Shown here: piece after piece, positions 1-52,734 of the stretch | Numbering within the stretch: position 1 is the stretch's first letter | Layout: the number at the start of each line of letters is the position of its first letter | Source: Siphonodentalium dalli | Taxonomy: Eukaryota; Mollusca; Scaphopoda; Gadilida; Siphonodentaliidae | Reading direction: 5' to 3' | NCBI GenBank assembly: GCA_032622095.1 | Contig: CP136063.1 | Coordinates: 148,915,379-148,979,378 of the forward strand | Length of the DNA stretch: 64,000 bases | Translations under genes and position numbers: made by a program | Notes under the pieces: model-generated | Databases searched by the model: none | What the model was told of the DNA's origin: nothing | The model's input: only the letters and a program-made list of their open reading frames with translations

Positions 1-365
1 GGCAGCCATGTTTTTTGGCCAAACGACCCCAAAATCACTCGTTCCCATCTACATGTCAATATTAACATACATGACAAATTTTATGATGATCAGACGAACA
101 GTACGACCTGTAGCCCGCGCCAATGGATTGAATTTTGAAATTCAAGATGGCCGTCAGCGGCCATGTTTTTTGGCCGAATGACACCAAAATGACTCGTTCC
201 CATCTACATGTCAATGTCAACATTCATGACAAATCTCATAAAGATCAGACCAAAGGTACGACCTGTAGCCCGCGCCAAAGGAAATTGTTGACGGACACAC
301 GCACACACAGACGATGGACGTCAAACCATGGCAATAGCTCAAACTTACAAAGTAAGTTGAGCTAA
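1..365 (+). repeat. tandem array A (about 164 bp unit), with terminal hairpin
   Basis: Units carry 'gacctgtagcccg', 'aagatggc...ggcggccatg', 'ttggccgaatgacccc' and 'actcgttcccatctacatg'. The array starts left of the window. It ends in the stem-loop AGCTCAAACTTAC-AAA-GTAAGTTGAGCT at 336-363, followed by AAAA. The short ORFs across it are repeat reading frames, not genes. Confidence 0.9.
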
Positions 366-980
366 AAATGGCTGTCGGCGGCCATGTTTTTCATAGAATA
401 TAATTCAAGCCAGAGAGCTCCCATCTAGAGGCGACCGTAAACATGCCTCTAAATTTTAAAAGCATTTCTCCAATAAATGTGGGCTGTATGGTGTGCCGTT
501 GGATTCAAATGTGAAATCAAAGATGGCTGCCAGGTTTTTAATGAATTTCGGAAACATTTGATGGCTCCCATATATGGACCACCCCACAGATCCATATACA
601 GTTCGGTGACAATCTGATGAGGAATGTGGCCTGTCGGGTGTGCCAAAGGATTTAGTCATGCAACGAGTAAAATCCAAGACAGCTGTCGACCACCATGTTT
701 TGATAAATGAACACTGTAGCTCAACTTTGGTAGGGGAATAATTTAATGGCTGACAGTAAATGGAGGAATTAGGAAAGGTGATAATTGAAATGTCTATGTA
801 AGAAAAGATGTAAATGTGAAGAGAGACCAAAAAATAAATATTGGTGGAAGTAGAACCTGTAGCCCGCGTCAACGGATTCAATTTTGAAATCCAAATTGGC
901 CACCAGCGGCCATGTTTTTTGGCTAAATAACCCCCAAAATGACTCGTTCCCATCTACATGTCAATATCAACATTCATAAT
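366..980 (+). repeat. diverged units of array A
   Basis: Further copies with 'ggcggccatgtttttc', 'gatgaggaatgtggcctgt' and 'ggatttagt' blocks at less regular spacing. A block near 715-790 ('tagctcaactttggtagggg') recurs near 18564-18640. Confidence 0.75.
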
Positions 981-1021
981 GATCGGATCAGGGATGTGGT
1001 CTGTAGGGTGCACCAAAGGAT

Positions 1022-1632
1022 TTAGTGATGCAAAAAGTTAATTCTATAAAAGGCTGTCTGGCCACAGTGTCCCCCCGAAAAAGTGGCTTCATTGGGGGCA
1101 TCAGCTTTTCTGTAAAAAATAACAAGGACCCTGAATCCGATACTAAATTTCAGAACAAAATGGGTGGATCGTACCCTTATTCGAACTTGATCTGTATTTC
1201 GAACTGCTAAACTCATATACCAAATTTGATTCCGATATGATCACACAAACTAAAGTTATCATCCGGAAACCAGAAATTGACAGGATTCTACGTCGAAAAA
1301 GGGCCATATTGTACCCATATTCGAACTTGACCTGTATATAGGGCTGATAAACTCACATACCAAATTTGGTTCAGATATGATCACACAAACTGAAGTTATC
1401 ATCCGGAAACCAGAAAATTACAAGATTCTAAGTAAAAAAGGGCCATAACTCTTGCAAAAATGGGCGGAGCAAACCCATATTCGAACTTGACCTGTATTTT
1501 GGTCTGATAAACTCACAAATGAAATTTGCTTTTTATCTAATAACCGAAACTAAAGTTATCATCCGGAAACCATTTCCGGATGCACGCACGGACGGACACA
1601 GGCTATTTTAATAGTCCCCATAATAGGGGGAC
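1022..1632 (+). repeat. tandem array B (about 160 bp unit) with terminal hairpin
   Basis: Three to four units with 'tcgaacttgacctgtat', 'aactcacataccaaatttg' and 'gttatcatccggaaacc'. It ends with a 'gcacgcacggacggac' tract and the stem-loop GTCCCC (1614-1619) / GGGGAC (1627-1632). Confidence 0.85.
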
Positions 1633-1768
1633 AAAAATGGCCACTGGCGGCCATGTTTTTTTGCCGAATGACCCCAAAATGAATCGTAGCCATACCAAAG
1701 GAAATTGTTGACGGACGACGGACGCCAACCCATGGCAATAGCTCAAACTTACAAAGTAAGTTGAGCTA
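1633..1768 (+). repeat. fragment of array A with its terminal hairpin
   Basis: One partial unit followed by the same stem-loop as at 336-363, here at 1740-1767 and followed by AAAA. Confidence 0.85.
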
Positions 1769-2124
1769 AAAATGGTTCAAATTTGATATCTCCCATCTGG
1801 AGGTAATCCCAAACAATTATCCAACAAGCAACTATTTTGGTAAATTTTATTAAAGCAGCTGCCTGCTGTCCTCTGGTGATAAAACATGATGATTTAAAAA
1901 TAATATGATTCAAAACAAAGATGTATACAACATTCAACAAAAGGAAGTTATGCATGAGTAAAATGTATCAAATGGATTGATGAACTGATGTTGAAGTCAG
2001 TGGAATGCCTAGTTAAATTGCCACCTTCTATAAGAGTTCACAATTATAGGGCTCCAAGACACTCAGTGGGTAAATGTGCAAAAACATTTTATAAAAGTCA
2101 ATATAAAAGCATCACTACTGAGAA
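1769..2124. other. no gene recognised
   Basis: AT-rich sequence with no coding homology and no clear repeat structure seen. Confidence 0.5.
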
Positions 2125-2380
2125 GCAAGGCTTGAAATAGTGTGTCTGTCATTTGCAGAATGAGGTCCACAGAGGTTGAATTTAGTGATGTTACCCTGCA
2201 TAGCTGGCTAGCATCACCAAATTCACCCTCTGGGGACCTCATTCTGCTTACACCTCAGCAGAATGAGGTTCCCAGAGGGTGAATTTGGTGATGCTAGCCC
2301 GCTATGCGGGGTGGCATCACTAAATTCACCCTCCAGGAACCTCATTCTGCAAATGACAGGCTCACTATTTCAAGGCTTGC
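2125..2380. mobile_element. foldback MITE, family M1
   Basis: A 256 bp near-perfect palindrome. The ends read GCAAGGCTTGAAATAGTG and its reverse complement, and the centre is near 2252. Arms contain 'gcagaatgaggt', 'gaatttggtgatgctagc' and 'cctcattctgc'. A second copy is at 51380-51787. Confidence 0.85.
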
Positions 2381-3765
2381 TAAGAAGAACATGAATATGG
2401 ATAAATAGATCAACTTTGTTCTTGTATCCATTATTGATAGTTATCCAATAATGAAATTTTGCATGTTGAAACCGTTTTTATGTAAACAAAACTCTTACAG
2501 TGATTTGTCAACAAATATTGCTAATCGTGTAGTAAGTTTATCAGTAATCCCACTGTAACAATAATGTTTACATAAAGGTTTTAAAATGTGCTTCTCGTCA
2601 CTGAATTTATACCTATTTTGCCATATTGTTCTTAGTGATGATGGTTGTCCAAACTTATTTAATTTTTCAAATTTACCCACTGCAGGTGCCTTATGTCGCT
2701 TTAACATCTGAGTCAAATACACACAATTCTTACTGACTTTTCAATAAAAGTATACCCAAATGTACATTACTGTCCCAACATATGAGGTGTCTTTTAATGA
2801 ATCAAAAGCCTGTGATATGATTGTTTGTGTGACAACCCGACTGAGGTCGCGTTAAGTACACAGATCAACATGTAATTGGCTTAAGATTTTATACAATGGT
2901 TACGATTATACAATTTGTTGTTCAATCCACATGGAATGGTTGATATAGCATTCACATACTGCTTATAGTTTTTAATGATGCAAATAATTCCTTGGTCGCA
3001 ATTGACACCGTACAGGAGGTGGCAACATTACTAATGGAATGCTAAACCCCCACTTCCTAGTCACACGAACATATTAATTTAAAAGAGACGTTTCATGACT
3101 CACAATTACATAGACCAAGTCTTCTCGGCCCACATCATCTTGGGATATCAGTTGTGATGATGCTGTTTTTGACTGAGTCCCACCATGTTGCTCTTGAATA
3201 AATTACTTTCATTCAAAAGACATACTACATGTACATGTGTAGCCAGGGAATTCACGTAATAATCATCTGACATGTCCTTGATTAATCTGTCTTCAAAATG
3301 ATATATTTACCGTGATATAAAAAGGTATAGTGATGATACGATTGTTAATGTACTGTTTACTTGCATTTTCTGATAGAGTGACTAATCAAGATTCTCTGGA
3401 AAACAAGTTTTTGTTTACTAACACCTCGTTGCTTTGACATTTAATGGTATGTTTGATATCATCATGCTTGGGAAAGGCTGCCCTCAATGTTCATATATGT
3501 AAAGCTTCCATTTGACCTAATCCTAAGACATACAAGCAAGATAACTCTCACCCAAGATTCTGGGTGTAAATTCCGTTAAATATTTAAGAGTAACGGAATG
3601 GGACTCAGCCCAAAACAGAATCATCTCAACCGATGTCTCCATGCTGTTGTTAGCCAGAAAACTTGGTCTAATGATTACACTAACAGTTATGGGAGATTAT
3701 TCGGGCCCCAAGATCCAGGTGGCACTGGAAATGCTCATACTAGTGGGCCTATTTCCACTATGGTT
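2381..3765. other. no gene recognised
   Basis: Sequence downstream of the Piwi 3' end. Only short chance ORFs are present and no protein family was recognised. Confidence 0.5.
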
Positions 3766-4003
3766 AAAAGGGTACTGAACACTAAATCCAGCCATTTATG
3801 GGACCATCTCCTATTATACTCAACAGAATAAATGCAACAAATGAATGAATTTGAGCCATGGATGAGTGCAAAATACACTTGTGTGCTCTATTAACAATGT
3901 AAACAACATGGTAATTATAATGAAAAGGAGTTAATCAACTAATTTTCATTATACTTACCATGTTGTTTACATCATTCATGGAGCACATGAGTGTATTCGT
4001 TCA
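3766..4003. mobile_element. foldback MITE, family M2, right end truncated
   Basis: Starts AAAAGGGTACTGAACAC. It holds the inverted pair 'aacaacatggtaattat' / 'ttaccatgttgtttac' and 'gagccatggatgagtgc'. It matches the fuller copy at 14106-14444 but lacks the right terminus. Confidence 0.75.
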
Positions 4004-5639
4004 TCACGTTAGAAGAATGAAATATATCAGAAAATGATGGAAACTTCGCTGCATAATGACATATTCTCAGTGATAAATCCAGAATGAGGCACACAGTTAA
4101 ACTGTGGAATCACAGGCTAAAATTCCTGGATATGCACAACCCATCCAAGTGACCCAGCTCCTTGTGCAAAACTTATCAAGAAAACAGTGCATATGGTAAA
4201 CAGGCAATTTCTAACTTTTTTTGTATAAAATAATACTTTATATATACAAAATGTACAGTAACATCAAAGTATCAACACATAAATGAAACAGTACAGAAAA
4301 TGTCAGAAGCCCTGACACAAGGACAAAGTAAAATTATTCCGATTCAGAAACAATAGTAAAAGAAAATATTTTTTAACAAGAGCCAAACAAATTTAATTAT
4401 TGAAAATCAGTGCCAAGCATCAGTTCAGTCATTACACTTCTCATGGTACCTAAATCTCAGATGCACAGCATCTACAAGATTAATTGTCCTATGGCATTTT
4501 TTAAATATTAATTCAGTGCAAATATGTTCCAATTCACAGTTCCAAAAGTTTGGGCCGTTTTCTTTTTATCACATGTACAATGCTATCGTATATTATATAC
4601 ACTCCAAAGAACCCTAAACTATTCATTCTGGTGGAATTATTTTTGAAAAGATGTCTTTGTTTACAATTTTTTTTTATTATTAACATCTCATAAAGGTAAC
4701 AGGAAGCATACTGCTTGGCACGAACTTTATTTGATTGAACACACTAGTTCTTTTGGTAGAATACACCTCATAATAGTCAAGACATGTTTAATTTACAGAT
4801 GTTGTCCTTGCAAAGAATGCTGTAAAAATGTAAATGATTTATATTGTCCAAGGATGGGACAGATTATTTATTGGAACATTTTAGAACTCTCTTGTATTTT
4901 TCTCTATTTCTCAAAAATAAACCAATGTATGTGCTAAAAGTAACTTGATTCATGATATTTAAAGGATCTTAGAAAGATCTGTGTAATTTTATGTGGTGTG
5001 ATATGCAATGTAAATTTCAACAATATATTCTGTTTCATTTAAATAAGCAGGGAAATGATATAATCTTGACTTAATTTAATTAGTGATACAATGTCCTTGA
5101 GTCATGGTAAAGAAACAGAAGTTGCATTTTCAACAAAAATCATTAATACTATGACTAAGAACATTCCTAGGAAGAGCTTCCTGGTAGTAGTTAAAAAGAG
5201 CAGACTCGGCTTAGAGATGGGTCAAAATTATTATACATCATTCAGGATAAGATCTTGGTAGACCAAAGGTTGTGCAATGCAATTGGGCTAAACTAAGCAT
5301 AGTCATATTAACATCTTTGTTTTTCGACAAAGAAAAACACAAAGAATACATGCTCAGACAAAATTATGCATGTTGCGAAATATTTAAGTCAAATAAGGGG
5401 GATAACTCCACTCAAAAAAGTTGGACAGACCTCACAAACGCAGGTTAGAAACAAAAACAGGGAAATCCAAAAGGAATATGTGGTAACTACTGTCACCGAC
5501 ATGTACAATTCATATACATTGTTAGCCAAACCAACTGAAAAGAAATATCATGAAAACAGTTAGCATCCAGCCATGGATTTTGATTAAATGAATTTTGATT
5601 AAACCTTTTGAATAAATGAATTTTGATTAAACCTTTCTT

Positions 5640-5840
5640 TACTATATACTCATTGAGGAGTAATGACCTTGGAAAATGTTCAGATAATAAGTTCAACAAA
5701 TGGGTCGTTGAACATTTCTCACCGAAGAATATGAATCCTGCACGTCTATTATCTTTTTGTCAATCTTTCATTTGCAGTTACATGTATTACCTGAACATCC
5801 CTCCAAATGAATAATTGACCATTACAATGTACTCTATAAA
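5640..5840. repeat. dispersed low-copy repeat
   Basis: Contains 'atgttcagataataagttc' and 'gaacatccctccaaatgaat', related to blocks near 6137-6232, 6780-6870 and 13270-13452. Boundaries are not clear. Confidence 0.45.
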
Positions 5841-6136
5841 GAAACAGATAAGTTGCCGCAATGGAGGATACCAGATGTAACCCACTTTAGATAACCAAGC
5901 TGGCCCCACCCATTTAAGAAGGAAATAACATTGGTGAGACAATACAAAGCTATTTCAAATATATTAAAACTGTATAAACTGGTGAAAAGAAACAGAACAA
6001 GGGCCAGAATCTAGCTTTATATCACACATATAGATATACCTCATGCCAATTAAAAACCAAATCAGTCAAAATAACTTCCAGATGCAGAGATAACAGTATG
6101 ACTATCATAATATTTGCAGCATATCAGTGAAGTATT

Positions 6137-6232
6137 TTTTTTCCTGAACACCCCCACCAGATGTATAATACACCATTCTAATGTATACTTTTATAACTGA
6201 GTGGGAGAAACCATTTAGTATAGAAAAGGGTT
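6137..6232. repeat. dispersed low-copy repeat, second block
   Basis: 'ctgaacacccccaccagatg' to 'tttagtatagaaaagggtta' resembles 13360-13450. Confidence 0.4.
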
Positions 6233-8540: not shown

Positions 8541-8956
8541 CAGTAACCTCCCCCCCCATTTTTCAAAGAATAATACAATAATCTTTAAATATAACAACAT
8601 TGGAATATAATGACGAACGAAATCTTTGCACAACTTCACAAAGATGGATGTTGGTCCACAGTGTAACCACATGTTACTAGTCTTCATTTTTTGGCACACC
8701 TCCAATGTGATCAGGCCTCTTGTCCTATCCTTATGGCATCGATGGCAGTAACACATAATATAGTGCAGAGTATTATTTAATTTTAATGTTGGAGAGTCAA
8801 AAGGTTCATAAAATGAAGTGAAAAGTGCAGCAGAAGAACATATTTCTGCTGTCAAAGCATTTTTGAAGTCTGCTCGGTTTTCGAATCCTCAGAACTAGAT
8901 TGACCTCCTTCACAAATGCCCAAGAACACAGATTTAAAAAGTGATACGTAAAGACT

Positions 8957-9773: not shown

Positions 9774-9812
9774 ATAGTACCTGCTTTTATGTTCTCATTA
9801 ATTATGAATGCC

Positions 9813-10973: not shown

Positions 10974-11192
<219 letters not shown>

Positions 11193-11374: not shown

Positions 11375-11850
11375 TCAGGCCAAAAAGTTGCACCTCGGGT
11401 GCTGAGATACCCCCATGGTGTCAATTGAAACATGGGCAAGACGGAATCCAAAATAAAAAAGATATATGAGCAGACAAAAATTCAACATTTTCAGATGAAC
11501 GAGAGATCTTGAACGGAAAATGCAAATAACATAACTGAATCCACATTTGAAAGCCCTCCTGATAACAAACCTGCAAACCAAATTTAATCAAGATCAGAGA
11601 GCCCGTGGTTCAGATATATGAGCGGACGGATGGAAATCCAACATTTTCACATAAACAAAAGAGGGATAACTCTTGAAAGGAAAATGTGAACGTCGTCAAT
11701 GAACCCTCTTTTGAAATCCCACCTGATGCCAACCCTGCATAACAAATTTCATCGAGATCTGATAACCCAAGGTTGAGTTATATGAGTGGACGCACGGACT
11801 CCCTGATGCATGTAATCCAGTATACCCCCAATATTTTGGATGGGGGTATA
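11375..11850 (+). repeat. array D copy with terminal hairpin
   Basis: Units with 'gagggataactcttgaaagg' and 'tttcatcgagatctgataac'. Ends in a perfect 9 bp stem TATACCCCC (11821-11829) / GGGGGTATA (11842-11850). Lies in the Piwi intron between 12223 and 11155. Confidence 0.8.
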
Positions 11851-12223
11851 ACAATTTTTGAAATAATGCACACATGCGTATTTCTTTTTAGATATATTTT
11901 ATTTCTGGGGCACATGCAAACGAAGCATTCTACATCCTCATCGGCTAGCTCCGGGTCTAATTTATTTCAGTTGCCCGTGGCCATTATTTCCAAAACATCA
12001 GATTGTAAAAAGTTAGTTGACAGAGTCCATGTCAAAAATCGCCTAAATCTAGTATGACTGACATAGTTACCAATTAGCAAAATTAATACCACATTTTTAC
12101 CAAAAGAATATTTCACAGAAGAATTAATAAAATTTGTGCCTCAATATTTGATGTAGGTTCCTACAATTGAATGGGGACTTAGCAAAGAAACAATTCACAA
12201 ACACTAAAATCCTGTGAACAGAC

Positions 12224-18319: not shown

Positions 18320-18560
18320 TATTCCTGGGTCATAACTCTGGCAAAGGGCCATGTAACACTGGAAATAAAGTGCGGACAAAACAAACCCAGGTCATATCTC
18401 TGGCAAAGGGCCATAACTGTGGAATAAAGTGAAGACAAAACCTGCACAATGAAGGACGAACGGATGAAGGTCTCCCCCCAAATCATCAATTCACAAATTT
18501 CAAAGTCAAACAAGGGCCGTAACTGGTAAAAATTAATAAACAATGAAAGTGTCAACAACA
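18320..18560 (+). repeat. interspersed repeat units ('ggccataactctg' type)
   Basis: Units with 'ctggcaaagggccat' and 'aaagtg.ggacaaaac', related to 25500-25950. Confidence 0.7.
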
Positions 18561-18639
18561 CAGTAGCTCAACTTGGAAAGGGAATAATTTAATGTATTAC
18601 AGTCAAAGGAGCGATTAGGATTGTGGAAAGTTGAATGTC

Positions 18640-19078
18640 TAATACGATCTGTAGCCCGTGCTAAAGGATTTAGTCATACAAAGAGTAAAATCCAAGATGG
18701 CTGTTGGCGGCCATGTTTTTTGGCCGAATGACCCCAACATGACTCGTTCCTAATTACATGTCATTATTAACATTCATGACAAATTTTACGATGATCAGAC
18801 TAAAGGTACGACCTGTAGCCCGTGCTAAAGGATTTAGTCATACAAAGAGTAAAATCAAAGATGGTTGCTGGCGGCCATGTTTTTCGGCCGAATGACCCCA
18901 AAATGAGCCGTTCCCATCTACATGGCATTGTTAACATCCATGACAAATTTTATGATGATCAGTCTAAGACAGACTAAAGGTACGACCTGTAGCCTGTGCA
19001 AAAGAATTTAGTCATACAAAGAGTAAAATCCAAGATGGCTGCTGGCGGCCATGTTTTTTGGCCGAATGACCCCAAAAT
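18640..19078 (+). repeat. array A, left half of a split array
   Basis: Units at about 164 bp spacing. The last unit stops at 'gaccccaaaat', and the rest of that unit resumes at 24694 across the inserted element. Confidence 0.9.
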
Positions 19079-19829: not shown

Positions 19830-21110
19830 CGCGACAGCGAGTCTTCCTCACACAGAACAGCCTCCAAAGTCTCGGGTGCTATTGTCCTAGAGGATTGGTT
19901 GCCCGAATCTCAGAGAACGGCACTCTGCCTGCCATGGTCTGCTGATGCAGGACCAGGGGGCGCGAACTGGTACAGCCCGAGGACTGGTACAGTTGTGCAA
20001 AGTTTGTGTAATTCATTGTAACAAGATTTGACACATATCCTGTGATGAAGTGTTTACAAGAGATCGACCCGTGTCGTGTCCGTACGCAAAGCGAGTTCCC
20101 GAGGAACGACAGAATCCTTGACCGACAGTGGGAACCACCGTCGGCCCGAGATCCTTGCTCATCGTCGTCAAAGCCATCAGACGCCAGGAGAATTATAGAA
20201 ACTAGAAAGCATGTCAGGATCGACGCCAGCAACAGAACAGCCTGCATCAGGTTGAGGTAAGGTACTAGAGGGAAGCCCACACTGGGAATGGCTCGAACGA
20301 GGAACAATTGCGCTCGCAGTTAGATTTTAAGGTGTTATTTCCCACCCCAAGGCCAGAATGGCGGAAAAAAAAAAGGAAATTGAAAGGATCCATTTGACCA
20401 GGGAAAGCCCCCCCCACCGAATCTCCCAAATGCAGGTGGTCCTGACACGCTGACATAAACGTCGATGACATACCACTAGGATCCCCTGACGGCAGAGGAG
20501 CAGGCCTGGACGTATCACTTGGGATGACGTTTCCAGGGGGACAAGACCGACCCTCGTAATGGAGTGGGCCACGGCGCCGTGGGGAAGCGTCAGAAGGCCA
20601 GTTGGCTGGTGCGCTTTGTGCGGCACGGGACAACGAGGCTTCCCCACCCAGAACAGTCGCCAAAGGCGCGGGTGCTGGTGTCCTGGAGGATTGGTTGCCC
20701 GAATCTCCGGAGGACGGTACCCTGCCTCCCACGGTCTGCAGAAGACGGGGCTTGCAGCATGACCAGGGGGGACCGAATGGTTCCTGCCCGAGTTAAGACT
20801 GGTACGTTTGCTCAAAATGTAAAACCATGGACCAATGGGCCCTCAACCAACTATGACAATATCGCGTATATTCATGAGCAACCCGTACGGCCATCAAAGT
20901 CGAATCTCGTTCGACTATAAGCAAGACAAGACATTCTGTTAGTTATTAGCAAGCATAATATACAAAACATTTGTTAGTTATTGCAAAACAAGGTTAATAA
21001 GGTAAATTCCGTTATTTACTATGGCCTGCTAGAAATTAAACCGCAGGTAAGATACTGTCTTCTCTCGGCGAAGAGGACGATGAGATCCGATTTCTCCTGT
21101 GCAAGAACAT
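19830..21110. repeat. left copy of a long direct duplication
   Basis: Nearly identical to 62636-64000, in the same orientation. Internally repetitive: 'gaggattggttgcccgaatc' and 'caggggg' modules recur (about 19830-19950 and 20590-20790, with a diverged one at 21755-21880). GC-rich compared with its surroundings. Overlapping ORFs on both strands (up to 162 codons) show no recognised domain, and an 8-base indel changes the frame between the copies. Confidence 0.85.
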
Positions 21111-21879
21111 AGCGGTGTCCTTGCTTACGGTGAGGAGAACGTTTTATACACTTACGGAAAGTCCGCAGATGGTGGAGCAGGCCTGGAATATCCCGAGGGA
21201 GTATGATTCCAGGGGGACAAGACCCACTCTCGTAATGGAGTGGGCCACGGACCGTGGGGAAGAGTCAGAAGTCTCAGTCCTTCCCAGGAGACAGGAGCAA
21301 TTGTTCACGCAGCCGTATGCAATTGTAATTTTCTAAGTCACGAATATTAAACTGTGCACTGTTCCCTCTTGACAGAATGTGCATGGTCATAGTAATCATT
21401 GATTCAATATTAAACTATTGGAAGGTATATATAAAATCGTTCCCATCGCAGTTAAATTATGGGAATGCGAAAGTGCCATGGAACATGCATGTTTTGAGGT
21501 CTATCCCACATTACAGCCCTCATAATTGGCTACGGCAATCGGCAATGCCGAAGCCATTTGCTGAAGCAAACTGGGCCATGATAAAGGGTTGCCGTAGCAG
21601 ATTGCCGAAGCCAAACAATCTGAATTAAAAGGGCTGCCACAATGACATTGAATTTGAGAAAACACAACTGATGATTATACAGGCGCAAGTACATCCGTCT
21701 TCTGAATTGCGAGAGCAAATGAGAGCTCGAGCTGCGTTTACATCTGGGAAGAACTGAAGTCTGGTTGGCTGGTGCGCTGTTAGTGGCACATGATGAGTCT
21801 TCCCCACCCTAAGGCTCAGGAGCGGTGGCATTCGCCCTTGAAGATTTGTTTTCCGAATCAACGATGGTAGCACCCCGCC

Positions 21880-22619: not shown

Positions 22620-24480
22620 GGATTGAAAGCGCAGAAGTATGATGGTATCAGTAAAAATTTACGCCATATTGATATAGTCAGTTCGTATGTCATTGAGCCT
22701 TTGAGGCACTGATACCCTTGTACTAGTATGGAACAATTATGGCTGGCCATACATGTTTTTAAGCTCACCATTTTGTATCATTTAAATTCGTAATTTGAAT
22801 GTATCTACAAACACTAATATCTGAGGATAACAGTTCAGATGTTGTCTATTTGTTACAGTGAACACATGGAAATGTCAAACATCAAAAGTATAAACATTGA
22901 TTGACTGAAAATTTATTGAGACACTGGCTAGCCAATGAATCCTTTCAACACTGCGACCATGCTAGGTCACACGGATATGGTGACTTGCCACAAGTAGGCC
23001 AGCCAAAGGCTCGCATCCAAAATTTCTCCTAAGAGATCTGATCACGGACGGAAGTATCCTTGGATATTTAAGCAAACTATAGCTGAAGGTTCAGGCTACT
23101 GCATTTGCATATCTGTGCAGTCATGGAACAGGGAAGCCCATTCTGCAAAATACATTGAGTGATTGCAAAGAAACAGACACAATTGTCGCCGAAATAACGA
23201 CAGAGTACCGATATGAATTGATGGAGATCGCCATTCGACAATGGGAACTCTGGCTTCAAGATTCGACGAGAATCACCGAATCGATTCCCGTAATGATTCT
23301 CACAAAACTGTACAATTTTCAGTGCCTTATGACTGACATGATTCAGCATTTGATTCTCGTAAAATGAAATGTATTTTGAGCCCTGGAACTTAAAATGAAA
23401 ATCCTTGTTGCCCAATCTTGTGTCAGATAATCCTAGTCCCCAATCAAACCAGTTGCACGAATCGTAGCAAGCGGACACTGTCAGTTATACTGGACAGACA
23501 TGGAAAGAAAGAGACTATTCAAGAGACACAGCATTATTTGAACACAGGCCATATAATGCTATATGTTACAACAAACATAATCTCATTGTTTCTAACAATT
23601 GTTCCGATAATACAATGAGGGAAAGGAAATGGAATCGCAAGAACAGAGTCAGAATTTCAAATAAATATCTTGAAGTCGATGTAACGGTTGCGACGTTCCA
23701 AGTATCCAAATACGAGCCCTCATGTCAATAGTAATACATTCGGGCTAGCTAAGATGTGCAAATATTAATCGGTAAGCACAATTAATTATAACGACATGTT
23801 GTATATGTACAATGATGTTCTGTGATAATCATTTACCAAATGTCGGTTAAGTTCCAGTCGCTCAACTTACAAATAGTTGAAACTTGAGGCAAAAGAAATG
23901 TCATTGGAATACAAGTTCTATCTTGTTTATTAAGACATGTAAATTATCGCCAAAGGAGACATTTCTGTCGTGGCCAACTTTCTGCGCACTAACAGAGCTG
24001 TTGCATATACGATTAGGTAGTGTACATGAAATGAACGTAGCCAGAAGTCTGCGTCATGAAATATAGTTAGCACGAAATTAGGAGACTTCGCATACCGTAC
24101 CACGTGTACTCAGAAATCGGACGATTCATGCCACCGTATATGTTGCACAATAATGCAATATTGGTTCGCTACAAGTAAACGATGTGCGCCTGTAGTCATT
24201 GTCAAAATGGCCATCAATGGCGAAGTTCTCAACGTAATTTTGTCGATTCCAATCCCAAATTTTTCGAGATAAAATGGGTCGATAAAAACACGGAATTTTT
24301 ATAAATAGCGTTGCGCATACTATGAAACGAAGAGTTTCTGCGCGAACTTAAAAATATTAAACGACCGGGTAAGCAACGGATAAATTGCAAGTTTGTTATC
24401 AACAATAAATATTGAGTTGATAAACTCGCAATAGAGAAATACTTCCTTTAGTTAAAACCACGTCTGATAGGTCCAAGGAG
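22620..24480. other. interior of the 5.6 kb insertion, no gene recognised
   Basis: Contains ORFs up to 133 codons (23077-23478, minus) with no recognisable family and atypical composition. I would not call them genes. Confidence 0.45.
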
Positions 24481-24693: not shown

Positions 24694-25500
24694 TACTCGT
24701 TCTCATCTACATGTCAATATTAACATCCATGACAAATTTCATGATGATCAGACAAACAGTACGACCTGTGGCCCGTGCTAATGGATTAAATTTTGAAATC
24801 CAAGATGGCCGATGGCGGCCATATTTTTTGTCCGAATGACCCCAAAATGACTCGTTCCCATCTACATTCCAATTTCAACAGCCACGACAAATTTTATGAT
24901 GATCAGACAAAAGGTACGACCTGTAGCCCGTGCTAAAGATTTAGTCATACAAAGAGTAAAATCCAAGATGGCCGTTGGTGGCCATGTTTTTTGGCCGAAT
25001 GACCCCAAAATGACTCGTTCCCATCTACATGTCATTATTAACATTCTTGACAAATTTTATGATGATCAGACTAAAAGTACGACCTGCAGCCCATGCTAAA
25101 GAATTTAGTCATACAAAGAGTAAAATCCACGATGGCTGCTGGCGGCCATGTTTTTGGGCCGAATGACCCCAAAATGACTCGTTCCCATCTACATGTCATT
25201 ATTAACATCCATGACAAATTTCATGACGATCAGACAAACAATACGGCCTGTAGCCCGTGCTAATGGATTGAATTTTAAAATCCAAGATGGCCACTGGCGG
25301 CCATGTTTTTTTTCCGAATGACCCCAAAATTAATCATTCTGGTCTAAATGTTGATGTCAACAGCTATGACAAATTTCATAATGATCCGACCAAAGGTACG
25401 ACCTGTAGCCTGTATTGTTGACGCCTTACGCACAAACGCAGACACGGACGACAAAGCCATGGCAATAGCTCAAGCTTTACAAAGTAAAGTTGAGCTAAAA
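24694..25500 (+). repeat. array A, right half, with terminal hairpin
   Basis: Four to five 164 bp units. Ends in AGCTCAAGCTTTAC (25467-25480), AAA, GTAAAGTTGAGCT (25484-25496), then AAAA. Confidence 0.9.
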
Positions 25501-25950
25501 ACCAGAGAACTATGTGTGTGTCCTTTCCACCAGCCTGTGCTATCATCATGCCAAAGGACAACAAAATCTGATAATTGACACCCAAGTTACAAGCTGAAGT
25601 TTATGTGCTTTTGGACACAAAACAAATTTCTTAGTCAAACAAGGGCTGAAACTCAGGTAAAAATTAATGGACGAAACCCGTAGTATGTTGATATCCTTTC
25701 CCCTAACCTGTGCTATCACCATGCCAAAGGACAACGAAATCCAATAAGACATCCACAGCATAATTTTTTTTATGGACAGTCCAGCAAAGGGCCATAACTC
25801 TGGGAAAATGTGCGGACAAAACCTGCACTATGTGGAGAACCTTTCCACAATGCTGGTCTACCAGCATACCAAAAGACACCCAAATGGGACTATCGATACT
25901 TGAGCTGTGATGTGAAATGTTTGTTAAGGATAGACGGATGTCTCCACTAT
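25501..25950 (+). repeat. tandem array F (about 170 bp unit)
   Basis: Three units with 'cctgtgctatcatcatgcc' and 'aaaggacaac.aaatc', running into 'ggccataactctgg'. Confidence 0.75.
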
Positions 25951-29181: not shown

Positions 29182-29251
29182 CTGCAAACATAAAAACAAG
29201 AGATGTGAATATTTTAGAGATTTATTCATAAGTTACAATACAACTGAAACT

Positions 29252-29785
29252 AGAGGTGTGACTGTCCCAATGAAACTAAGGATACCCCTCCCATTTCAAA
29301 TGTCAGTAAACATAAAATTAAAATAATTAAATAGCAGATTCCCATTGCAAGTGCACAATTATTAACTAAACATCATCTTAACCACAAATAATTGTTAAAA
29401 AAAATAATACTGAGAAAAATGAAAATATTCCAAGTCAAGAAGGTCAATAACTCTGCCAAAATAAGTCTGACCAATATTAAAATTGCAGGTGCACAGTTGA
29501 TGTCTGTGCAAAGTTTAAAAAAAAAATTAAAATACAACTGAGAAACACTCCAAACAAAATTGTGTTGACTGTTGACGATTGAAAATATTCTAAAAGCCAA
29601 TAACTCTGCAAAATTAAGCAAGATATTAAAATCGTAGGTGCATGGGTTCCCATGGTAGTTGATGTCTGTGCCAACTTTCACGGAAAATGATTAAAAAACG
29701 ACTGAGAAAAACTTGTGTCCATGGACGGTAGGAAGGACAAGCTGATTCCACTATACCCCTCCACAACTTTGTTGCAGGGGGTATA
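29252..29785 (+). repeat. array G with terminal hairpin
   Basis: Starts ACTAGAGGTGTGACTGTCCC, the same start as at 49284. Ends in TATACCCC (29752-29759) / GGGGTATA (29778-29785) with an inner CAAC-TTT-GTTG stem. Confidence 0.8.
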
Positions 29786-29879
29786 ATGATATTTATATCA
29801 ACATTCTACAAATGAGCAATAAAGGAAATCATACTGCCTGGTAAACTCATTCCCCAGAAAAAACAGCAAAAGGTTGCAC

Positions 29880-30811: not shown

Positions 30812-31074
30812 TTAACCCTTTTATGACTGGAGTATCCTGATATTTTGCGAAAACCGTGTATCAATGCATTCTCTTATATATGTGAGTCTCCCATAGGGAG
30901 CCTCACATATATAGGTGAATACATTGGCCTAACAATATTTACCATGACCTTGTAAGCCAGTGCATTCTCTTATACAGGTGAGGCTTCCTATCAGAGACTC
31001 GCATATATAAGAGAATGCACTGGCACTGTGTCTTTAATGCTGCACCAGGGTAACTCCCGTCATGAAACAGTTAA
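30812..31074. mobile_element. TTAA-bounded piggyBac-like MITE
   Basis: TTAA at both ends (30812-30815, 31071-31074). Imperfect inverted termini CCCTTTTATGACTGGAGT and CTGTTTCATGACGGGAGT. Contains two hairpins, one a 68 bp palindrome at 30959-31026. Its left end is 25 bases from the Piwi exon boundary at 30786. Confidence 0.8.
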
Positions 31075-32999: not shown

Positions 33000-34253
33000 A
33001 ACAAGAGGTGGCATCAGAGATGCTGTGTCTCGTTTTCGGTGGCTTACCGCTGGTGGCTACCGCTAATTGGTGTGCATCAGTATCGGTAGACTAATTAATA
33101 GGTAAAATCGAAAAATGACTAATTAAGGGCCATAACTCCATCAAATTTTATCGGGCCAGGCTGGTTTTCGAACTCGCCCGAAATATTCTTGGCAAGTATG
33201 TCTATTCCAAATTTTAAACAAATCGGAGGATGTTTGTTGAAGTTATCGCGCCAACGAGCTAAAAATTCACGAAAAATGACTAATTAAGGGCCATAACTCT
33301 ATCAAATTTTATTGGGCCAGGCTGGTTTTCGAACTCGTCCAGGATATTATTGGAAGACACTTATATACCAAATTTTAGTTGAATCGGATGACGTTTGTTG
33401 AAGTTATCGCGCTAACGAGCTCAAAATTCGTACAAAATGACTACTTAAGGACCATAACTCTATCAAATTTTATCGGAGCGGGCTAGTTTTCTAACTCGTC
33501 CGAGGTATTCTTGGGAGACACCTATATATCAAAATTTCAATCAAATAGGATGATGTTTGTTAAATTATCACGCTAACGAGCTGAAATTTTTTGAAAAAAT
33601 GACTAATTAAGGGCCATAACTCTATCAAATTTTATCGGACCTTGCCGGTTTTCGAACTCGACCGAGATATTCTTGGGAGACACCTATATACCAAATTTCA
33701 ATCAAATCGGATAACGTTTGTTGAAGTTATCGCGCTAACGAGCTGAAAATTCGTGAAAAATGACTAATTAAGGGCCATAACTCTATCAAATTTTATCGGA
33801 CCAGGCCAGTTTTCGAACTCGTCCGAGATATTCTTGGGAGACACCTAAATACCAAATTTCAATCAAATCGGATAACCTTTGTTGAAGTCGTGAAAAATGA
33901 CTAATTAAGGGCCATAACTCTATCAAATTTTATCGGACCAGGCCGGTTTTCGAACTCATCCGAGATATTCTTGGGAGACACCTATATACCAAATTTCAAT
34001 CCAATCGGATAACGTTTGTTGAAGTTATCGCGCTAACGAGCCTAAAATCAGTGAAAAATGGCAAAGGGTCATAACTCTGTAATAAATGTGCAGCTTACGT
34101 GCATGGATATGTACTCACACACCAAATTTTTTTTAATCCGTCAATAAACGGTTGAGTTATAAGCAAAATACGTCGCCCGCCCGCCCGCGGCCCGCCCACC
34201 CAACCACCGTCCCTCATCAAACTATAAGTCGAGTTTTGGAAAAAAACTCGACT
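33000..34253 (+). repeat. array H: seven units of about 161 bp with hairpins at both ends
   Basis: Begins AACAAGAG (33000-33007), then stem GCATC-AGA-GATGC. 'GGGCCATAACTC' or close variants fall at 33127, 33288, 33449, 33611, 33772, 33909 and 34066. One unit is about 24 bases short. Ends in a perfect 11 bp stem AGTCGAGTTTT / AAAACTCGACT (34227-34253). Confidence 0.92.
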
Positions 34254-34596
34254 AACAAATATGAGTGGAATTGGTTGACAATGAACAAATTATCACGTGA
34301 AGGGTCATAAAATTGCTAAAATTAGACAAACTACCTACCGTAAGGGCCATAAATTATGTAAAAAAAAAAATCGGACAAACCTGGTTTTCGAACTTGAATG
34401 GGGATCGTACACTAAATCAAAGCATTTATGGGTCCATCTCCTTTTATCCTCAACAAAACAAATGATTATTGCAAAATGCTCTCATGTGCTCTATGAACGA
34501 TGTAAAACAAAATGGTAATTATAGTGGAAATGAATTAATGACTCGCGTCATAAACTGATTTTCATTATAATTACCATGTTGATTATTTTGAACTAA

Positions 34597-45778: not shown

Positions 45779-46050
45779 AACAAGAGCACGCCGTCGGGGC
45801 GTGGCATAATACGCCTGTTTCTGGAGTAGAGTGGGACAAGGTTTAATTCATTTGTTTGAAACCTTTGACTTAAGACGAAATATAAACAAAAATAAAACAC
45901 ATAATCTGGAAACCGCATATCAGGTAAAATCTAAGTCGAAAAAGTGGCATAACTCATATTCGAACTTGATCTGTATTTTGGGGTGGTAAACTAACATACC
46001 AAATTTGGTTCAGTTCACTTGGTTCAATCTGAAGCATAGATGAAAGTAGC
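45779..46050 (+). repeat. AACAAGAG-type repeat with 5' hairpin
   Basis: AACAAGAG (45779-45786) followed by stem CACGCC (45787-45792) / GGCGTG (45798-45803), then a degraded array B unit. Confidence 0.75.
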
Positions 46051-46810
46051 CAGACATTAAAAATCAGGAAAATGATTATTATCCTAGCACGATATACTGA
46101 AGGCATATCACGAGGGCCAAAGGCCCGAGAGGGGGGTTGGTATGGGAGGGGGTATCCCCTTAATAAGTGGGGGTACGCTGGACCTCCCCGGGGAATATTT
46201 TGAAAATCTAATGCTCTGAGAATGATTCTGATGCATTCTGAAGCCTTATAGTATGATTTTCAAGTTGCCTAATTTTGAAATGATAGTTGAAAATTTTGAC
46301 CCTCAGACTAAGAGCAAATTTAGTGCATGTTGATGACACATATAAAACTGTTTATCAATAGTTCTTTGGTACAACCTATATTGTATGTTTTGAACAAATT
46401 GAAGAAAAAAAATTAGCAATGTACTGGTACATGTAATTGCCTTCCTGTCAAATATTTTTGGTCAATATCAGTGAAAAACAGACAAAATTACAAGCATGCC
46501 AACAAGGGTGCTTTTTATAATAGGGATGTTTGTTGAAAGACACATCAGGCTGTTTCATGATGCTGAAATTTAATTTGATTACAATAATTATATTTCCTAT
46601 TGCTATGTTTCACCTACATGTAATTTAAGAAAAAAACACATTAAAAACAACATACCATTTATATTACTCTATATATCAGCTTCACATGTTGATATCTTTC
46701 TTCAAAATGTCACTATCAAAATTGTTCAATGACACAGGAAATTGCAAAGACATGCAATTTCAAGTTCAAATTATTTACATCCAACATCTACTCTCTAAAC
46801 ATCTAGTCAC
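46051..46810. other. Piwi intron, no gene recognised
   Basis: AT-rich; nothing matching PAZ was seen on the minus strand. Confidence 0.45.
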
Positions 46811-48243
46811 TCAGCAAGCTGATTGGTTCTCATTTATTTTGTCTTTGATGTTTTCTGCAACCTTATGAATGCCAACTTTCTTATGAGAGGTACCGGTATT
46901 TCTATCAGATGTGTCCAACTTTAGTTTTTTGGCATTTTCCTCAACTCTATTGCTATTGTCATCCAGCTTCCTTTTATATCGCACGTAGGCAGAATCTAGG
47001 TGGTAGGTATACAATGGCTTCATCTACAGGATCTCTCTTTACATCTTCTCTGTAGAAGAGTTCTAATGATGTTGTGTTTTTCGATGCCAGTTCATACTTT
47101 ACACTCTGTATAGCACTGTATGTATCAATACTCATTCGGTTTGATCTTGCACTGATAAGGTCATTTATAACACTGAAAGACTGCTCCACGTGAGGTCCCG
47201 AGAATACGCTCAAACATGCCTTGACAACTTTCATCATACATGGATATTTCTTTGTTTTAAACACCCGGCCCCACCATTTGTCAAGAGGAACTGCTTTATC
47301 ACCTTCTTCCAGGGCAGGCAAATCACTGTCGAGGCGGATATTCGAGCATTCCAACAGATAGCTGTCAACATCAGTTGAAGATAATATACCAGGGAAGAAT
47401 TCTCTCAACCGCTTCATTGCTGGCAGACAAGCATCATGTCCCACGACTTTAGGGTCTATGGCACTCAAACTGATGAGTAGTGAATTATCGAGAGGGAATT
47501 TGCCTTGCATATATACTTTGCTGCAGCTAAGTATGCTTTTTGAACTGTGACGATAAATTCACTGACATGTTGATCATTTTCTGCTGACTTAAGCCGAGAA
47601 TCACATTTTGCTCCAATGAACATAGATTTGATATTGAGGTGATTGACTGTTGTTTCTATGTCCAATTTCTTTGGTCCTAATCCTCTCAGAACATCTGCTT
47701 TGATGAAGCATCCAAGGAAGGAATGGAGCAGTGAGATTATCTCACCATGGAGGCGATGGATCATAGGTTCTTTCTGCTCAAAGATGAGGACAAATGACTT
47801 AAAAAGTGGCAATACTGAGCAGTTCATGTCCATATGTAGTACAGCTTTCTCATACTGGAAGAACAGCTTTTCAACGATTCTCCCCTTCCTCTGTTGTGAA
47901 GCTTTTGTTAGTTTCTTCTTTCAAAGAGCATTGATAATCTCATAAATTCGGCTCCTCACTTGTTTTGATACATTTGCTTTTGATAAGCATTCAACAAATA
48001 CAGGTAGGTAAGCAGCTTTCAAATTCTTGGCATCCATGCGAAGTATAACACCCGGAAAGCAGGGAGCAGTCCAAGATTACGTTCTGTCACATCATACACA
48101 GACAGCCAACGATGTTCCACTCTTTTCAAAGGCATGTTATAGTGGATTCCAAGGAGGAGGCAGATTTCCTGTAGATAATTCCTCAATTCGGGACTTGTCT
48201 GCATGTCGGTATGGATGTTGTCATCAAGCTTTTCTACATACAT
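46811..48243 (-). pseudogene. broken hAT-superfamily transposase-like gene
   Basis: Reading the minus strand, successive pieces in shifting frames form one hAT-like protein. The first holds EHRWLSVYDVTERNL, like the RWLS block found in many hAT-derived proteins. A middle piece (47465-47833) follows. The last (46974-47510) has KWWGRVF, then GPHVEQSFSVINDLISARSNR, which resembles the C-terminal hAT dimerisation domain. A lysine-rich tail ends near 46811. At least three frameshifts (near 48030, 47510 and 47010) and an in-frame TGA near 47920 break it, so it is not translatable as it stands. No terminal inverted repeats were found around it. It sits in the large Piwi intron, in the same orientation as the host gene. 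The exact hAT subfamily is not clear. Confidence 0.75.
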
Positions 48244-49117
48244 GTCAAAGTGGGCACAGAATTTCTGAACAGAATTATGGATGTGGTGGCACAGGTTTCA
48301 ATGTTAGAGAGTTCAGTCATAGTAATGTTGTTTATTGAATTATATTTCATGGAAAAGAGTGTACATTTCTGATCATTTCGGTACCAAAAGTTTGACAAAA
48401 AGAGAAGTATTACTTGGTGCGTGATCAATAATGTGTCAAAAAATTGCCGCATTATGGTGAAAATCATGCCAATGGGCAATGTACATTTGTATGGGTTTCA
48501 AGGTGGTTTGACCTGGATAATGGCACCACTTTTTGGAGGCTATTTCCCTTTAAAATTCAGTTTATTAATTGTAATTTGGATATTTTTTAAGGTAGAGCAA
48601 CGAAACTTAACATAGTTGATGTTCATTGTATATGCTTGATATTACGTACGAAAACTTGAATATCTAATGAGTTATGCATACTAATTAGGTTAATTAGCAT
48701 ACAATGATGCTCATTATTATGCAAATTAGTAATTTCTTTGGTTTTACCGCAGATGGAGCATAGTTAATCTCACAATATAGGCATGATTATTTTGTTTAAA
48801 TTGTGGAAATAATTTTCACCCGAATGATGAGACATTGCTACCATAATATTTTAGTTAACTGTTATTGAATATTAATTAGCAAATTATTGAATTAATTAGT
48901 AGCTAATTAGCATAATATTTAGTCTGTCTGTCGAATATTCTAAAGTTTTGGAAGGAAATAACCCTGTAACCCCTGTCATGTGAGGTATCAAATTAAAGGT
49001 ATATGAAGATAGAATTCAGAAAGGGGCATGTAAACTATCAGATAATAATGTCATGAATGTTATCAATGCTACAAATGCCTCCAGAGCCATGTATCCATTA
49101 AACTTCAAGTCTCCATT

Positions 49118-49265
49118 AACAAGAGCTGGGCTATCGCCCGGTACATACCCCATGTAACATACGCATTATACCACATAGTGTGGCTTGTGTGGGCATACAT
49201 AAAAACCCATTGCTGTGATACTCGGGCAGATGGATGAAAAAACTACATTTTCAGATAAACAAAGA
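49118..49265 (+). repeat. AACAAGAG-type repeat with 5' hairpin
   Basis: AACAAGAG (49118-49125) followed by CTGGGC-TATC-GCCCGG (49126-49141). Confidence 0.75.
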
Positions 49266-49283
49266 TGAATAACTCCAGAATGA

Positions 49284-49990
49284 ACTAGAGGTGTGACTGT
49301 CCCAATGGACTAAGGATACCCCCCCCCCCCCCCCCCCCCCCCCCGTGTTTTAAAAACACTAAGATGTTTCACATGTCAGTAAACATTTAGTTAAATAATA
49401 AAATAACAGTTCCCATTGTAGGTGCACAACCCTAACCCTAACCTTAAACCTATTGACCGAAAAATGTAGGAATAAAAGTTCTAAGTAAAAAAAGGGGGAT
49501 AACTCCACCAAAAAATGTCGGACGGACGTCATAATCGCAGGTTCACAGGTTCCCTTGGTACTAAATATCTGTGCCAAGTTTTAAAAATATTGCCTTAAAA
49601 ATGTAGGAATGAAAGCTCGGACAAAATTATACATGTTGCCAAAATTTTCTAAGTCAACTCCACCAAAAAAAAGTCTGACAGACGTCATAATCGCAGGTGC
49701 ACAGGTTCCCATAGTGGTTGATGTATGTGCCAAGTTTCACGGAAATTGATAAAAAAAACAACTGAGAAAAACTCCGGACAAATTTGTGTCCACGGACAGA
49801 CGACGGACGGACGGACAAGCTGNNNNNNNNNNNNNNNNNNNNNNNNNNNNNNNNNNNNNNNNNNNNNNNNNNNNNNNNNNNNNNNNNNNNNNNNNNNNNN
49901 NNNNNNNNNNNNNNNNNNNNNNCCAATCTCGGATGCACGGACGCACGGACGAGGGTCATTTCTATAGTCCTCCGACGGAAACGTTGGGGG
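49284..49990 (+). repeat. array G copy with assembly gap
   Basis: Same start as 29252. Contains a 26-C run (49319-49344), a short telomere-like (CCCTAA) stretch near 49429-49446, two 'ctccacca' units, and the gap. Confidence 0.8.
49823..49922. other. assembly gap, 100 N
   Basis: Exactly 100 N, a usual placeholder for a gap of unknown size, between two 'cggacgg' tracts. Confidence 0.98.
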
Positions 49991-50399
49991 ACAACAAACA
50001 GACGGACTGATGGACAGACCAAGGGTTTGACCAAAAACATATGTCCCGTTTTTAACATGGATGTATTCAAAGAACAATTAGGCCACATTAACTTAATTAT
50101 ATGTTTCTCAGGAACCGCCGCCGCCACCTTAAAAAATCCGCCACTGGGAGCTTTTTATTCGACAACGTAAATAACCAGACTCCCAAGTCTTGGGTTAGAA
50201 TTTCACAACCGACATCTCAAACTTTCTCAATTTTTGGAAATTTCCAATCTCACAAGCACCTTTTTATAAAACCATTTAGACATGTTTGAAGCCCATTTAT
50301 CCATGGACCCAAAACACCATACATGTATGTCAGATTAATCAGTTAGGTAGTTCCAAGGAAGATGTTTTAATGAATTTGGTATTTCAATGATTTTTTAAA

Positions 50400-51300
50400 C
50401 ACAAAATTGTTAACTCCCCATAGCCCCCCGTCATTTCTTAACAGGTTGACCTGATGTTAACAAATCTGAATATCAGTCACTAAAGGATCATCCATACTAT
50501 ATGTAAGCTAAATAGTCCAACCTCTCTTGAGAAGACAATTTAAGAATGACTATAGAGACATACAGTTATGTCCCTGGTCCCACCCTATTTAACCTAGTGA
50601 CCACATCTGAATAAATTTCAATACCAGACACCAAAGAACCCTTCATACTAAATATCAGCAAAATAGACCTGTTAACATTTGTGGCGATTTCGGTCGAACA
50701 GTTTAACCCGAAGTAGGAAAATGTGGACTGTTACTGGTTGAAAAATCAAATCTACAGCCTCATTGCCTCCACCCAGGCAGCTTAGAAATCAATATTATTA
50801 TACCAGTATCAAACAGCATACATACAGGTAGGGTGGGTGGTTGAGAGTTAAATCTCTTATCTCTGCCCTTATTTGAACAAATGTGAATCCCCATCTATGA
50901 GATCTATTCATCTAGAAATTTCAAACGGTAAATTTTAAGAGTTGAAGAAAACTGATTTTCCTCAAAAGTTTCCTAAAAATGACCTCACGTGTACAAATCT
51001 GAACCCCACTCACCAAAGGACCCTCCATACCAAAAGCTAAATAGGCCTGATGGTTTCTGAAGAATTACTATGGAGGGAAAGAGTTATGGCCCTGGCTTCT
51101 CACCTATATGAACTGATGAACTCATTTGAACAAATCTGAATGTGAGTCAAAATATATAAACCATTTCGGTCTTTAATATGTATGTGGAGAAGAACAAAAT
51201 TGATGGACGGATGGAAACATCCCAACAGAGGGATGGACGGGAGGACATACTGACAGACAAATTCAATCCAATATACCCCCCCCCCCCCCCAGTTTTCTTT
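50400..51300 (+). repeat. array K units (about 150 bp)
   Basis: 'tttgaacaaatctgaa', 'aaggaccctccataccaa' and 'ggcctgatggtt' blocks. Ends near a 15-C run (51276-51290) within 'atacccc...gggtat'. Confidence 0.75.
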
Positions 51301-51379
51301 GCAAATCAGGGTATAATGAGTACAACTGGATAGGTGGTGGTTAAGAATATAATAGTGGAACAGCCAAGCCTGAATATAG

Positions 51380-51787
51380 TGTCTGACTTTTGCAGAATGA
51401 GGTCACTAAAGGGTGAATTTAGTGCTGCAATCCTGTAAGGTGGGCTAGCATCACCAAATTCACCCTCTGTGGACCTCATTATGCTTAGGCCTCAACTGCC
51501 ATGGGAGACATAGGAACAGATTGAAGTTGTCCAGTTAATTGGTGATGTGCACCCATTGGGCACTTCAATTATCAATTTTATCTTCTGACAGCAAATTAGG
51601 GAATATAGAAACTGAACAGAAGGGAAAAAGTAAGTAGAAATGTCAATTTAAGACCTGTATACTTCCCTGAAGATGAGGCCTAAGCAGAATGAGGTCCCTG
51701 GAGAGTGTATTTGGTGATGCTAGCCTACTGTGCAGAGTAGCATCACTAAATTCACCCTCTGGGGACCTCATTCTGCAAATGTCAGAC
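51380..51787. mobile_element. foldback MITE, family M1, second copy
   Basis: Inverted arms about 51381-51494 and 51673-51786, with GTCTGAC at both ends and a spacer of about 178 bp. Arms match 2125-2380. Confidence 0.8.
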
Positions 51788-52000
51788 ATACAGCATTTTG
51801 TTTTGATATGATATGTTAATGATACACACAGAGCATGACTGTTTACACCTAGCTGTCAGCCAGCTAGATAACATCTGAATTGATGACTGTTATTAACTCT
51901 TTCTGTCTGGGGCTAATACCATACTTTATGGATGTTACAAGGTGTCAGTTTTTCTAATTAATTTTTTCTTGACTGCAGTGGGTGCAGGGCGGCGCAGATT

Positions 52001-52023
52001 GGGGGGGGGGGGGGGGGGGGGGG
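52001..52023 (+). repeat. poly-G run
   Basis: 23 consecutive G followed by G-rich sequence. Confidence 0.9.
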
Positions 52024-52199
52024 TGGTAGTGGGGACAGGGGTGTAGAGGGAAAGGGGTGGAATGGGGTGTTTTGTGTCTAAAAAAATACAAAAAATCAGC
52101 AGGTAAAATGAAAAAAATATTTTTGTATTGGTTCATTTTGAATTGTGATTTGTTTTTTGAATTGAGCAAGGATTTAAATTTAACAATATTTTTTTTAAG

Positions 52200-52734
52200 T
52201 TATGTTCCTGACACGGCCCCTATTTGACACACTGACCCCATTTGAACAAATCTGAACCCCAGTCACACAAGGACCCACCATACAAAATATTAGCTAAATC
52301 GGCCTGATGATTCTGGAGAAGAAGTCATTCTAATAATTACTAGGGAGAATAGAGTTATGTCCCTGATTCTGCCCCTATTTGACCCAGTGACCCCATTTGA
52401 ACAAATCTGACCCCCAGTCACTCAAGGACCTTCCATACCAAATATAAGCTAAATAGGCCTGATTGTTCTTGAAAAGAAGTTGTTTTAATAATTACTATGG
52501 CGGGAAAGAGTTATGGCCCTAGCTTCGCAACTATTTGACTCAGTGACCTTATTTTAACAAATCTGAGTCTGAGTCAAGCAGGGAACATCCACACCAAATA
52601 TGAACTCATTTGGCCTTATGATACTGGAGAAGAAGATGATTGTTGACGGACGGACGTACGGTCAGACGGACGGACGACGGACGAGGAGTGATGACTATAG
52701 CTCCACCGGAGACTTCGTCTCAGGTGAGCTAAAA
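52200..52734 (+). repeat. array K copy with terminal hairpin
   Basis: Three units. Ends AGCTCCACCGGAGAC-TTC-GTCTCAGGTGAGCT (52699-52730; split here by loop), then AAAAA. Confidence 0.85.

Follow-up and report, generated by a model that had tools for sequence, protein, structure and literature searches.

Tandem repeat arrays with variable hairpin ends in the scaphopod Siphonodentalium dalli are very probably non-autonomous Helentrons

The structured ends of Helitron2 elements were described in 2013, reportedly by Bao and Jurka. In the relevant parts of that description, the 5' asymmetric terminal inverted repeat (ATIR) pairs with the nucleotides downstream of it, and the 3' ATIR is located upstream of a second hairpin (PMC3627910). 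The same parts report compensatory changes in the 5' hairpin of two related Culex elements and propose that the two ATIRs, by pairing with each other, may unfold the hairpin and thereby define the endpoint. In Drosophila, the subterminal inverted repeats (subTIRs) of comparable elements differ between species, and differences in the 3' stem suggest compensation (PMC2374699, in part). Such elements have been linked to Helentrons (PMC4067079, in part), and oyster elements of the same kind carry satellite-like arrays (PMC7492417, in part). Here we analyzed a stretch of 64,000 nt from Siphonodentalium dalli (assembly GCA_032622095.1, contig CP136063.1, positions 148,915,379 to 148,979,378), herein referred to as the window, in which repeat arrays end in hairpins of varying sequence. 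These arrays are very probably the bodies of Helentron-associated interspersed elements (HINEs), that is, non-autonomous Helentrons (Helitron2).

The varying hairpins are one of the normal ends of HINEs. The pattern is genuine yet already described in other animals, and it is explained because the same anatomy is found in the described parts of these systems (PMC3627910, PMC2374699, PMC7492417, PMC4067079). The elements found here constitute several new families within a known kind of element, all six in one 2.23-Gb genome. What this study adds, with no claim that such a test is the first in print, is the presence of several families side by side in a single genome and a numerical assessment of how their ends match.

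Six families were scored: A, K, M, P, Q, and R. An earlier reading of the window from its letters alone, herein referred to as the original prediction, had listed seven hairpins, starting at 336, 1614, 11821, 25467, 29752, 34227, and 52699. All of them are present, those at 336 and 25467 belonging to one family (A), and each is among the most stable 0.24-1.6% of the window's 44-nt stretches (DNA energies). The original prediction interpreted these as mobile elements with structured, Helitron-like ends that lack a TC start. This is borne out, the elements being of the rolling-circle type, but its placement of the hairpin at the 3' end is wrong. The hairpin consists of the 5' subTIR and its neighbouring inverted repeat (IR); the true 3' end is on the other side of the array, where a separate palindrome and the third subTIR copy are located. 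Helentron orientation corresponds to the minus strand of the window and reader orientation to the plus strand. In Helentron orientation the order is T-rich flank, TT, 5' subTIR and IR, microsatellite, tandem repeats, third subTIR copy, palindrome, and T-rich flank. The two extreme ends of an element differ in sequence and have no TC start. Central tandem repeats are present between the ends as the arrays of the window. The microsatellite before the hairpin is a GGAC-type run in families K, P, Q, and R, is weak in A, and reads CCCGCC in M.

The 2.23-Gb assembly, consisting of nine contigs, was searched with the array ends. For each family 40 copies were scored, self included; since these are the top-scoring candidates from longer lists, the copy numbers are minimum values. 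The hairpins are not at random positions within the arrays, and genome homology ends at the hairpin. Among the 39 non-self scored copies, secondary matches to inner array units being ignored, homology stops no more than 7 nt from the final AA of the hairpin in five of six families: at 25501-25505 in 34 copies of A, at 52735-52737 in 36 of K, at 34258-34262 in 34 of M (34227 hairpin), at 11849-11856 in 38 of P (11821 hairpin), and at 29786-29792 in 34 of Q (29752 hairpin). One of the five exceptions in family A extends across the flanking sequence as well, which suggests a duplicated site. In family R, 26 of the 39 alignments stop at 1619, within the hairpin, because the loops differ; the hairpin is terminal in the 20 fetched copies. 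Read on the plus strand, the elements terminate in GAGCTAA (A, K), GACTAA (M), GGTATAA (P, Q), and, in most cases, GACAA (R). The AAAA that the original prediction had placed after several hairpins is common to the ends as a rule in its first AA, and the remainder belongs to the A-rich flank. The frame AGCTC...GAGCTAA that it had noticed in both A and K is genuine: in the 2.23-Gb assembly, the pattern of this end motif alone matches exactly at 23,717 places, vs. 199 for the reversed control pattern. Families P and Q have the stem GTATACCCCC in common.

The opposite ends of the elements have the sequences AATGAAAGTGTCAATGACACT (A), ACAAGACAGTCAAAGACTGT (K), AACAAGAGGTGGCATCAGAGATGC (M), AACAAGAGGTTGCACCATGGGTGCA (P), AACTAGAGGTGTGACTGTCCCAATGGGAC (Q), and AATAAAAGGCCGCTCGGCC (R). 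As read by eye, a palindrome adjoins the 3' subTIR at the far end in all six families. A 5' subTIR with an adjacent complementary IR was also found in all six (one copy each), with IR match scores of 18-24; scores between families do not exceed 14, the related pair P/Q excepted. At the far end, the hairpin sequence recurs as a third copy in all families but M, where it is doubtful. The matches between hairpin and far end are TAGCTCAACTT (A), GCTCACCtGA (K), ATACCCCCAT (P), ATACCCCC (Q), and TGTCCCCCgAAA (R), the matching 3' subTIR being clear in A, P, Q, and R. For the three-way match, the outermost 18 nt of one copy per family were aligned with 60 nt of the other end of every family. The true assignment of hairpins to far ends alone scores highest among the 720 permutations, and the hairpin of Q scores equally with the far end of P and its own. 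The original prediction suggested that the ends are recognised by shape; in most families, however, the sequence of the stem goes with that of the opposite end, which suggests that sequence pairing plays a part in addition to shape.

The closest described systems have much of this anatomy in common, as far as the parts of their descriptions cited here go. Helitron2 has the 5' hairpin, the 3' ATIR before a second hairpin, and compensatory changes (PMC3627910); in the present study six families from a single genome were scored for the match of both ends and of the IR, with permutations serving as the control for the ends. Cg_HINE of the Pacific oyster has a 5' subTIR with an IR, a satellite-like central array, a 3' subTIR with a palindrome, and a microsatellite (GTCY, GTCC, and GTCK in several elements; mostly of the GTCC type here) (PMC7492417). 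It also inserts into T-rich targets without target site duplication (TSD) and has related flanks with unrelated arrays. In contrast to it, six families are present here, one nested in another; this comparison is by description, not letter by letter. Pearl elements of bivalves (named in PMC7492417) are, likewise by description, array-carrying mobile elements of molluscs. DINE-1 of Drosophila has 13-bp subTIRs, an IR beside the 5' copy, a GTCY microsatellite, central repeats, a 3' stem-loop, and TT insertion without TSD (PMC2374699, PMC4067079). Most DINE-1 subTIRs in the subTIR table start with (T)ATACC, as do those of P and Q (TATACCCCC), which is a lead only, whereas the other families here use AGCTCA, AGTCGAG, or GTCCCCC.

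Empty sites were found for five insertions, of which two (M_L054 and A_L020) are weaker cases; the sites are in A/T-rich DNA, and the target is not duplicated. For the family M copy M_L058, the joined flanks match uninterrupted sites with best identities of 97-99% over 219-220 of 220 nt; in five fetched empty sites the junction reads GCTAA/AAATAG, with nothing lost or duplicated. The family A units interrupted by the family Q copy Q_L074 and by the window's R element continue across the junction in 51 of the 57 and in 50 of the 59 alignments, respectively, and the alignments shown have a gap of one base there. For M_L054 the flanks match sites at ~84%, and an A-run leaves the boundary uncertain by ~3 nt. 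The copy A_L020 is located in A-type units, and two of its four alignments cross the junction, with further gaps. Direct matches at the junctions of 39 distinct insertions are in no excess over shuffled pairs (3.38 vs. 3.27). Counted outward from the end, the third flanking base is A in 91 of 94 distinct insertions, which corresponds to T on the opposite strand, and the fourth is at background; 12 of 106 rows were dropped from this count, six with the end motif not found and six with repeated flanks. This A is expected because strings of 2-5 Ts are reported at Helentron boundaries (PMC4067079, in part).

The original prediction stated that the sequence of the stems varies while their pairing is kept, and proposed covariation across copies of each array as the check. 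Pairing is kept between families and subfamilies, but not within a family. In total, 1,326 stem cells were scored in 106 copies of the six families: 1,280 are unchanged, 42 broken, 1 compensated, and 3 gaps. Copies of one family thus decay rather than covary. In this scoring G-T was counted as broken, the family consensus hairpins were written by eye, and window copies were included; the copies were taken from best-match lists, which biases them towards identical stems. The set includes 35 AGCTC-frame strings (29 distinct) from the first-listed places among the 23,717 matches, with repeats of the same form and longer matches overlapping a shorter one omitted. The change from CTTAC/GTAAG to CTTTAC/GTAAAG is genuine, as both forms recur across the genome. 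These two stems and GAGAC/GTCTC differ yet pair within one AGCTC frame, and further pairing stems in the same frame, among the matches listed, are TTGATAC/GTATCAA (once) and CTTTATAT/ATATAAAG (twice). Absence of covariation therefore holds for copies and not for lineages, because copies decay while families and subfamilies differ yet pair.

Several other explanations can be considered. One arm of the stem could be rewritten from the other during replication, by template switching or quasi-palindrome correction, with the fold itself not under selection. The compensated differences are indeed whole-stem jumps between subfamilies, point changes within a family are uncompensated (1 of 43 compensated), and one listed copy of A lacks the usual bulge and is perfectly paired. 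However, uncompensated changes in dead copies are equally expected if selection acts only at transposition, and arm rewriting alone does not explain the family's own sequence at the far end in most families; we consider it possible and rather unlikely. Canonical Helitrons (Helitron1) with a 3' hairpin, as suggested in the original prediction, would fit the CTAA ends of A, K, and M, which resemble CTRR, and a genome with at least 151 Helitron_like_N matches. They are nonetheless very improbable: P and Q end in TATAA and R mostly in ACAA, the next base is T in just 30 of 94 distinct insertions, and subTIRs and a second palindrome are present. The fit is to the known Helentron/Helitron2 branch, which lacks TC/CTRR.

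It is extremely improbable that the elements are miniature inverted-repeat transposable elements or other cut-and-paste DNA transposons, since the extreme ends read differently and target duplication is absent, even though they are short, non-coding, and highly repeated and contain inverted repeats. Ordinary satellite arrays with chance hairpins nearby have next to no probability: the window does contain other hairpins of equal stability, yet dozens of dispersed copies with mostly unrelated flanks have common ends, and empty sites exist. Of the diagnostic features of canonical Helitrons (5' TC, 3' CTRR, and insertion between A and T), the set was not found, the ends being AGCTAA, GACTAA, TATAA, and ACAA; the combination of terminal inverted repeats and target duplication that marks transposons of the cut-and-paste type was not found either.

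Proteins of the Helentron type were found in the genome, as follows. Four long frames of the weak-scoring group of Helitron_like_N matches were fetched (H1-H4), and H3 and H4 were searched for domains. The uninterrupted frame of H3, 2,739 codons long and searched in two pieces, contains OTU, DUF6570, Helitron_like_N, PIF1, and a weak Exo_endo_phos match (E 0.0024). OTU, DUF6570, Helitron_like_N, and PIF1 were found in H4 as well, and a TatD DNase frame follows downstream. The arrangement is close to the Helentron layout in the relevant part of PMC4067079. HINE copies are located near the Helentron frames, upstream in H1, H2, and H3 (family-end search), others downstream, and look like separate insertions. 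Near the start of the H3 frame (L109, ~28-60), an A-like palindrome end precedes a T-rich stretch ending in CAG and the frame's ATG; this is perhaps a HINE recruited as a promoter or splice site, or chance.

Several observations weigh against the assignment to HINEs or against parts of it. The Exo_endo_phos match in H3 is below Pfam's cut-off, and no endonuclease of the Exo_endo_phos family was found in the tested pieces of H4. No autonomous element sharing HINE ends was found in the four Helentron regions. Stem pairs within families break instead of covarying in 42 of 43 classified changes. The third copy in M is weak, with only GTTTT matching and a score of 10 vs. 13 with Q, and the hairpin of K is not specific, scoring 15 both with the far end of A and with its own. 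The empty-site boundaries of M_L054 and A_L020 are blurred by gaps in A-rich sequence. A scan of H1-H4 for sequences present in three copies gave one hit with 11-mers, in H4; with 8-mers, H2-H4 gave no hits and H1 gave two, both of low complexity (shuffled sequence, 0-2 hits); this silence means little, because the 7-mer version missed three of five known elements.

We infer that HINEs are mobilised by the Helentron-type proteins of this genome. A Helentron Rep-helicase-endonuclease made elsewhere would copy them by rolling-circle replication, and the copies would then integrate into T-rich DNA, leaving the target unduplicated. For the hairpin, the most plausible role would be the one proposed for Helitron2 in the cited part of PMC3627910, with the 5' subTIR folding back on its neighbour. 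The 3' subTIR would pair with the 5' subTIR, open the hairpin, and mark the end of replication. Since such strand pairing would demand three matching copies, each new lineage would keep the pairing while its sequence drifts.

The window contains the following HINEs, all on the minus strand. A complete family M element at 33000-34255 (hairpin 34227-34255, palindrome GCATCAGAGATGC at the other end) is 90% identical to genome copy L054 over its whole length, and its ends are also seen in fetched copies. The complete family P element at 11381-11851 (hairpin 11821-11851) is 75% identical to L072 (positions 3-522 of 522); its far end, read in the sequence near 11390-11416, has the palindrome GCACCTCGGGTGC and the third subTIR copy AGATACCCCCAT. 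Family Q is represented by a complete element at 29248-29786 (hairpin 29752-29786, the far palindrome degenerate in this copy), 69% identical to L077 end to end, and by a second one at 49283-49808, 78% identical to L077 (positions 1-527), whose hairpin end is missing owing to a gap of 100 N (49823-49922). The N run directly follows the family Q microsatellite and is an assembly gap or masked; past it, at ~49967-49993, another GGAC run and a hairpin of a further HINE-like end were found. The family K element at 50175-52735 (hairpin 52699-52732), shortened at the palindrome end, matches positions 255-2854 of a 2.86-kb genome copy with 96.7% identity. A diverged K element is located at 54303-55416 (palindrome end 54303-54430, array up to 55416), and a K array truncated within its hairpin at 58302-58815. 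Family A arrays with a hairpin end were found at 24788-25498 (hairpin 25467-25498; 94% identical to L006) and at 2-365 (hairpin 336-365, CTTAC/GTAAG variant). Additionally, a hairpin end of the CTTAC/GTAAG variant, absent from the original prediction, is located at 1718-1769, and a palindrome end at 18539-18645 is 93% identical to the first 107 nt of the element in L006. The family R element at 1048-1634 (hairpin 1614-1634) is inserted in a family A unit, and both its ends are complete.

Other structures were also found. A long palindromic repeat with a ~103-bp unit at 2155-2350 has further copies at 51365-51497 and 51671-51791, inside the family K element, and looks like a foldback element inserted in K. 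A different end-like structure at 30875-30913 has TATATATGTGAG on one side and its inverse on the other, with a second palindrome (CTCCCATAGGGAG) in between; a similar one, reversed, is located at ~30955-31018, and another downstream of a Helentron frame (genome locus L110, ~5943-6060). Two 1.3-kb stretches at 19830-21150 and 62637-64000 are 93% identical to each other and have a G+C content above most of the window; their longest listed frames have 162 and 145 codons. A 178-codon frame on the minus strand (46974-47510) presumably resembles the C-terminal part of a hAT transposase. No matches were found in the window with Rfam at curated thresholds, and no genes with ARAGORN.

The puzzling repeats of this window thus become ordinary annotation, namely several HINE families carrying satellite-like arrays around a large genome. 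Tentatively, and with a rather low probability, the 5' subTIR, the IR, and the far-end subTIR may form a three-part, family-specific address that keeps several Helentron lineages of one genome apart, each end opening only its own hairpin; if so, new families would arise by concerted replacement of all three segments. The only wider interest of these elements is that the diversity of six families in one genome suffices to test how Helentron ends are recognised.

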